From an uncultured Lachnospiraceae bacterium (GTDB lineage: Bacteria > Bacillota > Clostridia > Lachnospirales > Lachnospiraceae), in the NCBI GenBank assembly GCA_947593655.1, contig CANQDS010000007.1, forward strand, positions 1 through 50,984: a DNA stretch of 50,984 bases, written 5' to 3'. The notes beneath the pieces are model-generated. The model worked only from the letters and a program-made list of their open reading frames with translations, was not told where the DNA came from and ran no database searches. A program made the position numbers and the translations under genes. Below are positions 13,843 to 49,967 of the stretch, piece by piece; the stretch's first letter is position 1, and each line of letters begins with the position of its first letter.

Positions 13843-15285
13843 ATGTCATCGAATAAAAGCATCAAACGCAATTACATCTACAACATGAGCTATCAGGTGC
13901 TTACCCTGATCACGCCATTGATCACCGCGCCTTACATCTCCCGCGTCCTCGGAGCGGACGGGATCGGCGCCTACAGTTATACGGCTTCCATTGTCGCATA
14001 TTTTGTCATGGCTGCGTCGCTCGGCACCCTGAATTACGGAAACCGCGAGATCTCCTACCTCCAGAAAGACCGCGCCGGCCGTTCTCTCGTTTTCTGGGAA
14101 ATCGTGTTTCTCAAACTGCTCAGTGCCTCCCTCTGCCTTGCAGCATACTTTGTTTTTCTCTTATTTTGCAGAAATCATACCGCCTTATACACGGTCCAAA
14201 GCCTGGCTCTGCTGTCTGCCGCCGCCGATATCACATGGCTGCTGCAGGGGCTGGAAGAGTTCGGGAAGATCATCTTTCGCAACATCATTTTAAAAATTCT
14301 GAACATTGCATTTATTTTTCTTGCCGTCACTTCCAGAGAAGACCTGCTCCTTTATGCTGCGGGCTGTTCCCTGCTGGAATTGGCCGCCAACCTCTCGGTC
14401 TGGGCGTATGTCCCGAAATATGTGAACCGGCCGGAATGGAAAAAGCTCCGCCCTCTCCGCCATCTGAAGCCGGTTACCGCCCTGTTTATCCCGACGGTTG
14501 CAGCTACCATCTATAACTGTCTGGATAAAACCATGCTGGGGATCTTTACTGCTGCCGATTATGAAAACGGCTATTACGAACAGGCCACCAAGATATCCCG
14601 GATGCTTCTGACCGCAGTAACCGCTCTGGGAACCGTAATGATCCCAAGGATCGGCCTGTACTTTAATGAGGGAAAACACAAAGAAGTCCGGGAGCTGCTT
14701 TATGAAAGTTTTCATTTCGTATGGTTTCTGGGAATCCCGCTTTGTTTCGGCCTGATCGGGATTTCCTTCCAGATCGTACCCTGGTATTTCGGTCCTGGCT
14801 ATGACAAAGTTTCCCTGCTTCTTGTAATCCTTGCGTTTTTAATCCCGATCATCGGACTGAGCAACGTCACCGGTGTCCAGGATCTGATCACAACGAAACG
14901 CGAACACATTCTGACACGCACGGTCTGCATCGGCGCCGTTATCAATTTCTGCATGAATCTTTTTTTGATCCCGCGCTTCTATTCGACCGGCGCCGCAATC
15001 GGATCCGTCACAGCAGAACTTGTCATCACAATCTTGCAGCTTTATTACTTAAGAAAGGAGCTCTCCATCAGAATCATTCTGTCCTCTTCCCGGAATTATT
15101 TTCTGGCAGGCATCCCCATGCTTCTGCTTCTGCTTGCAGAGAACCATTTTCTCTCTTCTTCTATTCTGCATACGGCGGAAATGGTCATCAGCGGAATGCT
15201 TGCCTATTTTCTGATTCTGTTCCTCCTGCGGGATCCGTTTCTGCTCAAATATGCCGACAGCATCATTTCCCGCATCCGTCCGTAA
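13843..15285 (+). CDS. Second polysaccharide flippase, Wzx-like
   Basis: The start is placed at the ATG at 13843, which follows TGGAGGG; an ATG twelve bases earlier is in frame but lies before that site. The 480-residue protein has ~12-14 membrane segments. Its N-terminus, SIKRNYIYNMSYQVLTLITP followed by PYISRVLGADGIGAYSY, is characteristic of the RfbX/Wzx repeat-unit flippases of Firmicutes. It is the only plus-strand gene of the region, is divergent from the capsule operon, and is richer in G+C than the first flippase. Its 3' end overlaps the convergent Wzy-like gene by 23 bases. It probably serves a second polymer, together with that gene and the two GT2 genes beyond it. Confidence 0.87.
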   Translation: MSSNKSIKRNYIYNMSYQVLTLITPLITAPYISRVLGADGIGAYSYTASIVAYFVMAASLGTLNYGNREISYLQKDRAGRSLVFWEIVFLKLLSASLCLAAYFVFLLFCRNHTALYTVQSLALLSAAADITWLLQGLEEFGKIIFRNIILKILNIAFIFLAVTSREDLLLYAAGCSLLELAANLSVWAYVPKYVNRPEWKKLRPLRHLKPVTALFIPTVAATIYNCLDKTMLGIFTAADYENGYYEQATKISRMLLTAVTALGTVMIPRIGLYFNEGKHKEVRELLYESFHFVWFLGIPLCFGLIGISFQIVPWYFGPGYDKVSLLLVILAFLIPIIGLSNVTGVQDLITTKREHILTRTVCIGAVINFCMNLFLIPRFYSTGAAIGSVTAELVITILQLYYLRKELSIRIILSSSRNYFLAGIPMLLLLLAENHFLSSSILHTAEMVISGMLAYFLILFLLRDPFLLKYADSIISRIRP

Positions 15286-43143: not shown

Positions 43144-45801
43144 ATGAATTACGGAAAAAACTCTATGAAACGCCGGGAATCCCAGATTGATGCACCGGGG
43201 AAGCGGATCCGCAATAAATGCGCCGTGACGGCAGGCAAGGTTCTGCTGGTCTTCGTGATCTTTCTGGGGGCGGTCGGCATCAGTTCCGGGATCGGCGTCT
43301 GGAAAGGCATTGTAGATTCCGCGCCGGATATATCCGCTATGGATGTAACTCCTACCGGATTTTCCACTACGATCCTTTCCAGCGACGGGCAGGAAACGGC
43401 GACGCTTGTCGCATCCGGAGCCAACCGGAAATATGTCACGCTTGATGAGATTCCCCTTGATATGCAGCACGCGTTTGTCGCGATCGAGGATTCCCGTTTC
43501 TACACCCACAACGGGATCGACCCTGCCGGAATCCTCCGTGCTTTTGCAGACGGGCTGCGCCAGGGAGGATTTTCCCAGGGAGCGAGTACGATCACGCAGC
43601 AGCTGATCAAGAACAACGTGCTGACTTCCTGGACCGGAGAAACAACTTTTATCGAAAGCCTGCAGCGCAAGATTCAGGAACAGTACCTTGCGGTAAAACT
43701 GGAAGAACAGGTTCACAACAAGGACTGGATTCTGGAAAATTACCTGAATACGATCAACCTCGGTTCCAATACGCTGGGCGTACAGGCGGCTTCCCTCCGT
43801 TATTTCGGGAAGGACGTTTCGGAGCTGACGCTTTCCGAGTCCGCGGTCATCGCCGGGATCACCCAGTATCCAAGCGCCTACAATCCGATCCTCCATCCGG
43901 ACAACAATGCAAAACGCCGGAAAAAGGTTTTGGACGATATGAAGGAACAGGGCTATATCACGCAGACGGAATACGATGAAGCAATGGCCGACAATGTTTA
44001 CGACCGGATTGCAGAGCACAATGCGGTCGTCGTTGACAGCTCCGTTAATTCCTATTTTACGGACGCGGTCATTGACAACGTGCTGGACGATCTGGAAAAT
44101 GATCTGGGCTATACCGAAAGCGAGGCCTACAAGGCGCTTTATCAGGGCGGACTGACCATCTATTCGACACAGGATCTGGATATCCAGCAGATCTGCGACG
44201 AGGAGGCAAACAATCCGGATAATTACCCGGCAAAAACTTATTATTCGTTCCAGTTGTATTTTCAGGTAAAACACGCGGACGGTTCCACGGAGAATTTTTC
44301 CCATCAGACGATGCTTGCTTATTATAAGGAACAGTCCGGCAATCCGGAATTCAGCATCAAATACAATTCCGAAGAGGAATGTTACGCGGCGATCGCGCAG
44401 TACGAGCAGGATATTCTGGGGGAAGGCGATTCGATCGTGGAAGATTCCGAATCCGTCTACATTACGCTGCAGCCGCAGATTGCGCTGACCGTCATGGATC
44501 AGTATACCGGCGAGGTCAAAGCGCTGGTCGGAGGCCGCGGGGATAAAGCCGGCAACCGGACCTGGAACCGCGCGACGAAAACGACCCGCCAGCCGGGTTC
44601 CACGTTCAAGATCATCGCGGCTTACGCTCCGGCTCTCGATGCCGGGGAAAAGACGCTTGCCAGCGTACAGGACGACGCTCCTCTGACCGTCGGCACCAAG
44701 ACCTACCGGAACTACGACGGCGTTTTCCGTGGTTTTACCACATACCGTCAGGCGATTACGCGTTCCATGAATATCGTAACCGTCAAGACGCTTCAGGAAA
44801 TCGGAGTCGATCTGGGTTATTCCTACGCCGAGAAATTCGGTTTTACGACCCTTGTCGATACGGATAAGAACCTCGGACTCTGCCTGGGCGGACTGACCAA
44901 CGGCGTGACCGATCTGGAGCTGACCGCCGCTTATGCCGCGATCGCCAACGGCGGAGAATATATGGAACCGAAATTTTATACCAAGGTTCTGGATCATGAG
45001 GGAAATGTCTTATTGGATAAAACCGAGACCCAGGAAACGCACCGGGTCATCCGGAAAACGACCGCATGGCTTCTGACAGACGCCATGAAAGGAGTTCTGA
45101 CATCCGGAACCGGCGGCAGGGCTTATTTCGGCGATTCGATGGCGCAGGCCGGGAAATCCGGAACCACCACCAACGACCGCGACAGCCTCTGGGCAGGATA
45201 TACGCCGTATTATACCTGTGCCGTATGGGGCGGCTATGATGATAATTCCATCCAGACCACAACCTCTTACCCACAGGTGATCTGGCGCGAAGTGATGAGG
45301 CGCCTGCATACCGACCTTCCGTACAAGGATTTTGAACAGCCCAGCGATATTACTTCCGCTGTAGTCTGCCGCAAATCCGGCCAGCTTGCCGTCGATGAGC
45401 TGTGCAGCCTCGACCCGCGCGGTTCTCAGGTTTACACCGAATATTTTGCGAAAGGCACCGTTCCGGCTGATTCCTGCGAACACCACCAGATGTTTGACAT
45501 CTGCAGCGAATCCGGAATGATCGCCGGCGAGTTCTGTCCGGAAGAGCTGGTGACGCCTACCGTTTACATCACCGGCGGATCCTCCGACACGGAAGACGGA
45601 GCTTATCTTGCCACGGAGGAATTTCTGCAGCAGACCTGTGATATCCACACGGAAGCGCCGGAGGAGCCGGAGCTTCCGGATACGGATCTTCCGGACATCG
45701 ATCTTCCGCCGGACAATTCCGAAACGGAAAACACACCCCCGGACGCTTCCGGGGGCGGCACCGGAGAGACCGGGCAGAGCAATGGTGCGGGCAGTCCGTA
45801 A
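43144..45801 (+). CDS. pbp1A: Class A penicillin-binding protein (PBP1A type)
   Basis: This 885-residue bifunctional peptidoglycan synthase has a basic cytoplasmic N-terminus, one membrane segment (~31-52), and a GT51 glycosyltransferase domain with the catalytic glutamate in FVAIEDSRFYTHNG (Glu115) and GASTITQQLIKN (~152). Its transpeptidase domain has SxxK in PGSTFK (Ser486), SxN in RSMNIVT (~540) and KSG in GKSGTT (~675). The C-terminus has cysteine pairs (CRKSG…DELC) and an acidic Pro/Asp/Glu-rich tail. It polymerises lipid II and crosslinks strands outside the membrane. The ATG follows AAGGAGG. The gene is monocistronic and GC-rich; the next features downstream are AT-rich accessory DNA. 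No PASTA domain is present. Confidence 0.95.
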   Translation: MNYGKNSMKRRESQIDAPGKRIRNKCAVTAGKVLLVFVIFLGAVGISSGIGVWKGIVDSAPDISAMDVTPTGFSTTILSSDGQETATLVASGANRKYVTLDEIPLDMQHAFVAIEDSRFYTHNGIDPAGILRAFADGLRQGGFSQGASTITQQLIKNNVLTSWTGETTFIESLQRKIQEQYLAVKLEEQVHNKDWILENYLNTINLGSNTLGVQAASLRYFGKDVSELTLSESAVIAGITQYPSAYNPILHPDNNAKRRKKVLDDMKEQGYITQTEYDEAMADNVYDRIAEHNAVVVDSSVNSYFTDAVIDNVLDDLENDLGYTESEAYKALYQGGLTIYSTQDLDIQQICDEEANNPDNYPAKTYYSFQLYFQVKHADGSTENFSHQTMLAYYKEQSGNPEFSIKYNSEEECYAAIAQYEQDILGEGDSIVEDSESVYITLQPQIALTVMDQYTGEVKALVGGRGDKAGNRTWNRATKTTRQPGSTFKIIAAYAPALDAGEKTLASVQDDAPLTVGTKTYRNYDGVFRGFTTYRQAITRSMNIVTVKTLQEIGVDLGYSYAEKFGFTTLVDTDKNLGLCLGGLTNGVTDLELTAAYAAIANGGEYMEPKFYTKVLDHEGNVLLDKTETQETHRVIRKTTAWLLTDAMKGVLTSGTGGRAYFGDSMAQAGKSGTTTNDRDSLWAGYTPYYTCAVWGGYDDNSIQTTTSYPQVIWREVMRRLHTDLPYKDFEQPSDITSAVVCRKSGQLAVDELCSLDPRGSQVYTEYFAKGTVPADSCEHHQMFDICSESGMIAGEFCPEELVTPTVYITGGSSDTEDGAYLATEEFLQQTCDIHTEAPEEPELPDTDLPDIDLPPDNSETENTPPDASGGGTGETGQSNGAGSP

Positions 45802-45854: not shown

Positions 45855-45883
45855 TTGACTTTCTTCCCGTTTCTTACTAGAAT
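45855..45883 (+). promoter_or_regulatory. Promoter of the type III antitoxin RNA
   Basis: TTGACT (45855-45860) and TAGAAT (45878-45883) are 17 bases apart. The predicted start near 45890 lies just before the first 45-base repeat, as in known type III loci, where the RNA is transcribed from its own strong promoter. Confidence 0.8.
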
Positions 45884-45894
45884 GAGAGTGCAAA

Positions 45895-45984
45895 GAAAGT
45901 TTACCACTGACCGATATGTGGTATATAAATGGTCGGGTTGAAAGTTTACCGCTGACCAATATGCGGTATATAAGTGGTTGGGTT
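45895..45984 (+). repeat. Two 45-bp tandem repeats of the antitoxin RNA
   Basis: Units 45895-45939 and 45940-45984 differ at five positions, all transitions. A third partial unit (GAAAGTGTAG) starts at 45985, keeping the 45-base phase. Four of the five changes fall in two base pairs (45906 with 45919 and 45913 with 45934 in unit 1; 45951 with 45964 and 45958 with 45979 in unit 2), and pairing is retained in both. Confidence 0.95.
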
Positions 45985-45994
45985 GAAAGTGTAG

Positions 45995-46022
45995 TCCTTC
46001 GCCGTAAGGCGAAGGATTTTTT
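45995..46022 (+). terminator. Terminator between antitoxin RNA and toxin stub
   Basis: A 9-bp stem (TCCTTCGCC with GGCGAAGGA) is capped by a GTAA tetraloop and followed by six T residues. Type III loci place such a leaky terminator here to keep antitoxin RNA in excess of toxin mRNA. Confidence 0.95.
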
Positions 46023-46039
46023 ATATTGAGGACATACAA

Positions 46040-46099
46040 ATGAAGAAAACAGGTTTTTATATTATTAAAGATAAATTTCTATCTCCATTATTTTGTTAA
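46040..46099 (+). pseudogene. Truncated ToxN/AbiQ-superfamily toxin (CptN/TenpN-like) stub
   Basis: A TTGAGGA site precedes an ATG at 46040. The frame reads MKKTGFYIIKDKFL and then diverges and stops after 19 codons. The start resembles CptN/TenpN-type toxins as I remember them (M-K-x-G-F-Y-x-I-K-D-x-F-F), which are normally ~160-190 residues. Everything after about residue 14 has been replaced by sequence that also encodes the end of the convergent SGNH hydrolase gene. The stub cannot be an active nuclease. It lies 17 bases after the terminator of the repeat RNA, exactly where a type III toxin begins. The family call on so short a fragment relies heavily on this context. Confidence 0.65.
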
Positions 46100-49531: not shown

Positions 49532-49967
49532 CAGAAGAAAACCATTTATCAGCACCGAAATCAATCATATCAATCCATATCAAACAGGAGGACATTATGA
49601 CGCCATTATCACGATACGAGCAGGAAACCGTAGTCAACTATAACGCCGGAGAGTAGAGCGACACCCTCTACAAAATGATTCCCTGAATGGTTTAGGATAA
49701 AGCGGTCATGCGGAAACTTGACACGCTTGTTGCCGACTTTCCCAACACATACAAGCTGACAGGGCAGGACGGGGTATCTAAGACCTATTCCTTTCCGAAA
49801 TCACACATCAGTTACCGCAAGCCGAGGACAGTCAGCACCGAGCAGAGGGAACGGGCAAGGCAAATGATGATTGCACAGAATAAGAGAGGATTAAGCAAAA
49901 TTTAATGGAATTGTGTGTGCGGTTGTGGTAAAATAGCAACATTGAACAATGAAACAAATCGGGATTT
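49532..49967 (+). repeat. Decayed mobile-element cassette, copy 2
   Basis: This is the second copy of the segment at 47227-47673. It is followed directly by the lincosamide nucleotidyltransferase-like gene. The final ~70 bases, including the TGTGG-TAAAAT region, are shared with copy 1, so both accessory genes sit behind the same leader. Confidence 0.85.
49597..49905 (+). pseudogene. Broken small gene of the duplicated cassette
   Basis: The frame from ATG 49597, after AGGAGGAC, reads MTPLSRYEQETVVNYNAGE, then three in-frame stops. It resumes in the same frame as VMRKLDTLVADFPNTYKLTG and continues SKTYSFPKSHISYRKPRTVS to a stop at 49905. Without the stops it would be a ~100-residue protein of the kind found in integrative elements and phages of Clostridia. 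Restart at the ATG at 49708 could give a 65-residue C-terminal piece, but no ribosome-binding site precedes it. Confidence 0.65.

Follow-up and report, generated by a model that had tools for sequence, protein, structure and literature searches.

A CptI antitoxin RNA gene beside a CptN toxin gene reduced to 13 codons in an uncultured Lachnospiraceae bacterium

Why should a type III antitoxin RNA gene stand, apparently undamaged, beside a toxin gene of which only the first codons are left? The question is raised by positions 45855–46099 of the 50,984-nucleotide stretch of Lachnospiraceae DNA that was analysed here (the window). The initial annotation had described an orphan antitoxin RNA of the CptIN/ToxIN kind, which could be a recent relic or could neutralize the toxins of incoming phages or plasmids. 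Comparison with related loci favours the relic. We put the probability at roughly 80% that this is a former CptIN_Er-type locus from which cptN was recently deleted, and that any latent immunity to CptN_Er-like toxins is a by-product of its decay.

The promoter, the two 45-base repeats, the GNRA-capped terminator and the ribosome-binding site that had been annotated are all present where they had been placed, and all lie on the + strand. The predicted promoter (TTGACT-17-TAGAAT, 45855–45883) agrees with the consensus at 10 of 12 positions; its hexamers and their spacing are those of an intact locus in a relative (L005), the spacer itself having diverged. Two 45-nt repeats follow in tandem and without a spacer (start-to-start distance 45, 89% identity), with their boundaries set as in the crystal structure with CptI_Er: unit 1 at 45897–45941 and unit 2 at 45942–45986. 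The stem of a predicted intrinsic terminator with a GUAA loop (GTAA in the DNA; 45993–46018) separates the antitoxin from the toxin, the position that it has in intact CptIN loci, and the segment 45985–46030 has a folding energy of -20 kcal/mol (z -6.3). Sites resembling promoters and terminators are found at close to chance frequency around the locus (five against 3.0 expected and two against 0.9 expected, respectively), and the two calls were accepted because the elements have the same placement in intact loci. A putative promoter before the repeats and a putative intrinsic terminator after them is the arrangement of a CptIN locus. The putative ribosome-binding site of the lost toxin (GAGGA, 46028–46032), which has a similar counterpart in intact loci, leads into an open reading frame at 46040–46099 that reads MKKTGFYIIKDKFLSPLFC.

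Upstream lies a penicillin-binding protein gene (PBP; 43144–45801, + strand; PF00912, PF00905). Downstream, a GDSL/SGNH hydrolase gene (PF13472; 46065–46697, - strand) converges on the locus and overlaps the toxin stub, whose antisense strand supplies the final codons and the stop of the hydrolase. Pfam families of cellular type were assigned to seven surrounding ORFs, a description that applies to those seven only. Elsewhere in the window, an ORF at 49915–50475 matches PF10706 (aminoglycoside nucleotidyltransferase-like). Rfam gave no match at the locus at gathering score, the sole such match in the window being a tRNA elsewhere, and the lax matches at the locus are at chance level.

The identity of the missing toxin is provided by relatives. 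A DNA search of 145 genomes, comprising the source genome and those of relatives, matched 20 including the source genome itself, several of the weaker matches being due to chance. In the best external matches, homology to the window stops at window position 46078 and the relative continues into an intact toxin of 154–162 residues. These relatives are filed as Roseburia (L005, = L120; L006, = L149) and as Agathobacter (L010, = L155). The array of L005 is identical to that of the window over 90 nt and precedes an intact toxin of 156 residues, which is a CptN by its match to NF047359 (177.9 bits) and to the crystallized CptN 4rmo_A (phmmer, 2.2e-77); Pfam has no match to a CptN toxin of the L005 type. 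The survey of relatives for an intact counterpart that had been proposed found one, and the reading as a type III antitoxin beside a lost nuclease is borne out. Among further candidate loci, L251 is a chance match inside coding sequence, and L018–L023 and L026 (the same place as L018) were judged by eye to be chance or terminator-only matches.

The antitoxin itself can be identified to the letter. Unit 1 equals the reverse complement of the published CptI-WT primer (PMC4627078) at 45 of 45 positions in a script comparison and is thus CptI_Er, and unit 2 equals unit 2 of the intact L005; the 45-base length given for CptI in the initial annotation is correct according to the same source. CptI_Er was cloned as a single repeat by Rao et al. 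(2015; PMC4627078), and that repeat alone fully protected Escherichia coli against CptN_Er, protection that was abolished by A29U or by deletion of U30. Both units of the window retain G13, A29, U30, G44 and A45; U30 is not invariant, as it differs in the intact loci L062, L087, L116 and L136. Each unit has the make-up of an H-type pseudoknot, with two stems, a one-base loop L1 (G13) and an A-rich loop L2 containing A29 and U30. In unit 1, stem S1 pairs 45903–45907 with 45918–45922 and S2 pairs 45911–45914 with 45933–45936, and the scissile A45 is at 45941; in unit 2, S1 pairs 45948–45952 with 45963–45967 and S2 pairs 45956–45959 with 45978–45981.

That the repeats are pseudoknots, as had been annotated, is supported by covariation in both stems. 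Unit 2 differs from unit 1 at five positions, four of which restore pairing: A10–U23 becomes G10–C23 and G17–C38 becomes A17–U38, the fifth change being A33G. Across 18 units of intact loci (12 of them distinct) 108 of 108 stem cells pair, over all nine pairs, compared with only 21–40% of cells in a control in which the partner was slid by 1–3 columns. Two-sided changes occur in 10 cells, and the covariation score was reached by none of 500 shuffles; the number of pairs with a two-sided change (two) was equalled in 97 of 500. Energy folding of the single units, by a method that cannot represent pseudoknots, is no better than for shuffles (z -0.7 and -0.3).

The course of the toxin loss can be read from the junction at 46078/46079. 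Up to this point lies a cptN remnant (46040–46078), an ATG and 12 further native codons encoding MKKTGFYIIKDKF; beyond it, the frame runs on through a foreign tail, LSPLFC and a stop (46079–46099), which corresponds to the final stretch of the GDSL gene read on the opposite strand. The native CptN residues number 13, and the stub of 14 that had been annotated is one too long. Conversely, the GDSL reading frame crosses the junction to a stop, and its homologues terminate at about equal length. Most simply, a deletion between the two convergent genes would have taken away cptN from codon 14 onward. A nearby GDSL gene is also found at L016; the orientation differs and the identity is 41%, and a recurrent partnership was set aside as coincidence.

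The remnant also carries information on the age of the loss. The peptide MKKTGFYIIKDKF begins the toxin, without any change, in 40 of 84 arrays with a recognizable toxin start (a set in which L039, whose array is split by N, may be counted twice). The stub differs from the nearest intact gene, L143, at one synonymous position and from L005 at three, all of them synonymous, where about 21% would be expected to be synonymous at random (p of three out of three, 0.009). Among the matches listed, 12 of the closest 14 differ from the stub synonymously only, and two by one amino-acid change each. Since only synonymous differences separate the stub from its nearest intact relatives, the toxin loss looks recent. 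The upstream PBP gene is matched in 60 of 62 genomes of the genus, and up to 1.5 kb downstream of it in 15 relatives (14 judgeable, L258 having only 69 nt there) contained no CptI unit (best candidate, 21 mismatches in 45) and no GDSL gene; the CptI locus was therefore probably acquired in the lineage of the window. In G029, the closest relative by PBP identity, a CptI-type terminator preceded by at most traces of a unit (L018:1480–1560) is perhaps a fully decayed locus.

Under the relic reading, a complete CptIN_Er-type locus would have lost cptN from codon 14 and, with it, the spacer as far as the last GDSL codons, and the promoter, both CptI units and the terminator would have outlasted the deletion. 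The RNA gene would still be transcribed to an RNA of about 130 nt that ends at the terminator and contains two H-type pseudoknots; without a cellular CptN it would stay uncut into 45-mers, and idle. Should a CptN_Er-like nuclease arrive, for example on a mobile element, it would cut this RNA behind A45 and become sequestered by the units. The cell would then be protected from that toxin, and a CptIN of the same specificity could not addict it. The capability to neutralize such a toxin is plausible, unit 1 being the assayed CptI_Er; that neutralization is a selected function is possible. A point against simple decay is that both units are undamaged, which is also expected of a selected orphan.

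No CptN gene accompanies the array: 13 codons are left, and no CptN match lies within 1.6 kb downstream. A search with NF047359 found no CptN elsewhere in the source genome, a draft of 186 contigs that is 87.4% complete, and a CptN may sit in the missing part. Three other loci of this genome (L002–L004) were considered as toxin partners for the orphan and rejected, as they are ToxN (PF13958) with different repeats. At one of these (L004:520–990, contig C101) the ToxN match covers only positions 1–79 of 159 and is followed by unrelated sequence; three repeats and a terminator precede the shortened gene, making this a second type III locus that lost part of its toxin but retained the repeats.

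To place the locus in its family, 146 CptI arrays were collected, duplicates being removed, and their toxins classified with a CptN profile built from seven toxins and applied up to 1.6 kb downstream. An intact CptN follows 62 arrays, a broken or partial one 29 (a class that may include sequencing frameshifts of drafts, and of which one, L015, is a TenpN) and none 33, with 22 undecided; the 33 are the window, 30 other bacterial arrays and two viral ones. L039 is one array in this count, and L016, L096 and L117, having no unit under the cut-off, are outside it. Grouping of arrays with surroundings 99% identical leaves 141 (61 intact, 28 broken, 33 none and 19 undecided), and the arrays from the family-wide model search (sets cmfam and cmfamX) divide into 15, 7, 7 and 4, respectively. 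Two-unit arrays mostly keep the toxin (57 intact, 22 broken and nine none), whereas one-unit arrays mostly do not (five, seven and 24).

These figures depend on how the arrays were retrieved. The model R1, for which only intact loci supplied units, matched 35 of 397 genomes of the family, 10 of 62 of the genus and five of 391 of the class, in overlapping draws that each include the source genome; its S1 pairs are one column off (columns 10–14/25–29 instead of 9–13/24–28), so that it worked as a sequence profile and relatives by structure alone may be missed. A 23-base pattern, which contributed part of the 146 arrays, matched at least 119 stretches of the genome contigs and favours well kept units, since it fixes 19 bases within the unit. 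The converse loss is rare: clear upstream tandem repeats, above all shuffles, are present in 28 of the 30 best CptN loci, and of the other two, L248 is masked by N with its units visible and L228 has none by the shuffle test. Taken together, the counts suggest that loss of the toxin with retention of the antitoxin is frequent and one-sided in this bacterial family. In four arrays (L010, L068, L093 and L167) a motif of 28–29 nt lies upstream, which among the loci examined is found only there and in the copies of L010. It stands 194 nt before the array in L010, where there is a toxin start before the contig ends, and 67–68 nt before it in the toxin-less L068, L093 and L167, where the stretch from motif to array lacks the promoter region.

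Alternatively, orphan arrays might be kept by selection, for instance as anti-addiction RNAs against CptIN systems on plasmids, integrative elements or prophages, or as a means of freeing the cell from a second resident CptIN. Several observations point in that direction, beginning with the identity of unit 1 with an assayed antitoxin. Some other orphans (for example L138, L152, L154 and L195) keep the promoter, one unit and the terminator, with the start region and the toxin gone. In 30 orphan units, namely the two of the window and 28 of 33 distinct toxin-less ones (L109 unit 2, L156 unit 2, L166, L218 and L220 being omitted), 95.9% of stem cells pair, with compensatory changes that include a new U10–A23 pair; the value for 35 of 38 intact-locus units is 98.4%, units with more than eight mismatches (for example L095) are in neither set, and retrieval by sequence inflates such conservation. 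Between the orthologous orphans L068 and L167 the units have diverged by 3.3% and the near flanks by 3.3–20% (three differences), and between L109 and L156 by 1.1% and 1.7–6.7% (one difference); two further aligned pairs, L068/L093 and L010/L167, are not comparable and were left out. That the units are no more diverged than the alignable flanks hints at constraint, on differences too few to claim selection. Two genomes (G389 and G775) hold an orphan plus an intact CptN on another contig, and CptN homologues occur on six plasmid records.

Other observations argue against a selected role. The toxin loss in the window looks recent, so that selection is unnecessary to explain the intact array, and toxin-less arrays as a class drift: mismatches per unit average 3.26 in these, against 1.35 in broken and 0.94 in intact loci (means in which L039 may again count twice), all nine pairs are present in 25 of 42 units against 47 of 51 and 109 of 119, and the promoter and terminator fade to median identities of 0.76 and 0.83, against 0.93 and 0.99. 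A CptN match elsewhere in the genome is not enriched with orphans, being found in two of 10 family genomes with one (G287 and G389) and in 66 of 397 overall. The six plasmid-borne CptNs are only 29–50% identical to the L005 toxin, and the published experiments on three CptNs that are 35–44% identical found no cross-protection by their CptI antitoxins (PMC4627078), which counts against protection from the plasmid toxins. We regard a selected anti-addiction RNA as quite unlikely here. From these sequence comparisons we conclude that most orphans are probably stages of decay, the window being an early one in which the latent antitoxin ability is a by-product. The suggestion of a recent relic is thereby favoured, on the purely synonymous differences between the stub and its nearest intact relatives, the lack of a corresponding locus behind the PBP gene of the relatives inspected and the drift of other orphans.

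An artefact that brought a CptIN locus and an unrelated GDSL region together on one contig could be suspected in an assembly of 186 contigs, all the more as the search set contained one genome per species. The join, however, lies within a 51-kb contig and is crossed by the GDSL frame described above, and toxin losses of this type are seen in other genomes; we consider misassembly very improbable. That the RNA now serves a different purpose, for example repression by antisense transcription of the convergent GDSL gene, whose 3' end overlaps the stub, is scarcely credible, as the terminator ends at 46018, before that gene, and the CptI units are unchanged with respect to the intact locus.

CptI units without a toxin also occur in sequences classed as viral. 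In three contigs of the viral collection (L218, L219 and L220) a unit stands without a toxin in the available sequence. L219, part of a 150.8-kb contig, carries (at 14580–14696) a unit identical to CptI_Er at positions 3–44 directly after a tRNA-Asn, which ends a series of five predicted tRNA genes (one with an undetermined anticodon), and no toxin start within 190 nt downstream. In L218 (796–1035; part of a 71-kb contig with a terminase match) segments similar to other type III antitoxins lie downstream of the CptI unit and scored above 60 shuffles each: 42 against 31 for a different CptI subtype, and 43 against 30 and 70 against 29 for the TenpI-like units of L015; one further segment is borderline (30 against 29). 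Upstream of the CptI unit, two segments had no leader match above the null (score 24, null maxima 50 and 35), and over the whole 611-nt stretch the number of pseudoknot-like units (three) is not above that in shuffles (mean 1.27, maximum 4). From its sequence, L218 is possibly a multi-target antitoxin decoy array. L220 (4777–4821) has a promoter-like site, one CptI unit and a hairpin, and since two serine recombinases adjoin, it may be an integrative element rather than a phage.

A mixture of antitoxin types is also seen at L015 (985–1700), a TenpN locus (NF047358, 131.8 bits): its leader has four pseudoknot-like units, one CptI and the others TenpI-like, with a summed score of 108, the highest of 40 shuffles being 47. 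The array of the window is absent from the INPHARED phages and the PLSDB plasmids, no CptN was found in INPHARED, and a search for another CptI subtype in viral contigs was negative. The viral units, the CptI unit in a TenpIN leader and the toxin-less chromosomal genes might be taken together to mean that type III antitoxin units circulate alone as RNA decoys, the chromosomal genes providing permanent RNA-based protection from CptIN systems, against both addiction and abortive infection; we hold this to be doubtful. A literature search that covered mostly titles and the openings of abstracts returned no description of portable antitoxin units for CptI or TenpI.

Among known systems, the locus is closest to CptIN of Eubacterium rectale (CptIN_Er; PDB 4RMO; PMC4627078), with which it shares two 45-nt pseudoknot units, the first identical, and the order of array, terminator and toxin start. 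It differs in that the toxin is lost after codon 13, leaving no working pair, and in that the N-terminus of the stub agrees with close CptN relatives, for example L005, and not letter-for-letter with CptN_Er. The pseudo-ToxI of phage PhiTE (PMC3475682) likewise consists of toxin-free repeats resembling a type III antitoxin that can defeat the toxin; it is phage-borne and of the ToxI type, and by the published account its 1.5 wild-type repeats have to expand before they work, whereas the window has two full CptI units, one of them identical to a working antitoxin. As in chromosomal anti-addiction modules (PMC12548467), a resident antitoxin could cancel the toxin of a mobile element, but here it is an RNA without its toxin, for which a selected role is possible. 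RNA anti-CRISPRs, which are solitary CRISPR repeat units in phages (PMC10651486), also consist of a single repeat unit without its system; they target CRISPR–Cas, and the analogy extends only to the viral units L218–L220.

The statement in the initial annotation that no orphan of this type is well described holds for bacteria, for which we found no description in the literature covered (the founding survey, Blower 2012, could contain one), and has to be qualified for phages, pseudo-ToxI being a toxin-free type III mimic. A marine survey (PMC12654330) counts orphan toxins and antitoxins and reports 26 type III orphan toxins; the available part of its text names no type III orphan antitoxin and states that homology methods miss RNA antitoxins.

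We reason that in a type III system the toxin should be lost before the antitoxin, since a cell that lost the antitoxin first would be left open to the toxin. On this view an orphan antitoxin RNA is the step to be expected as such a system dies. The window shows that step with a date stamp at the level of codons. The viral and mosaic arrays suggest that antitoxin units are perhaps also portable RNA anti-defences. As unit 1 is identical to a tested antitoxin, the question whether decaying toxin–antitoxin loci leave the cell immune to the toxin that they have lost can be put directly.
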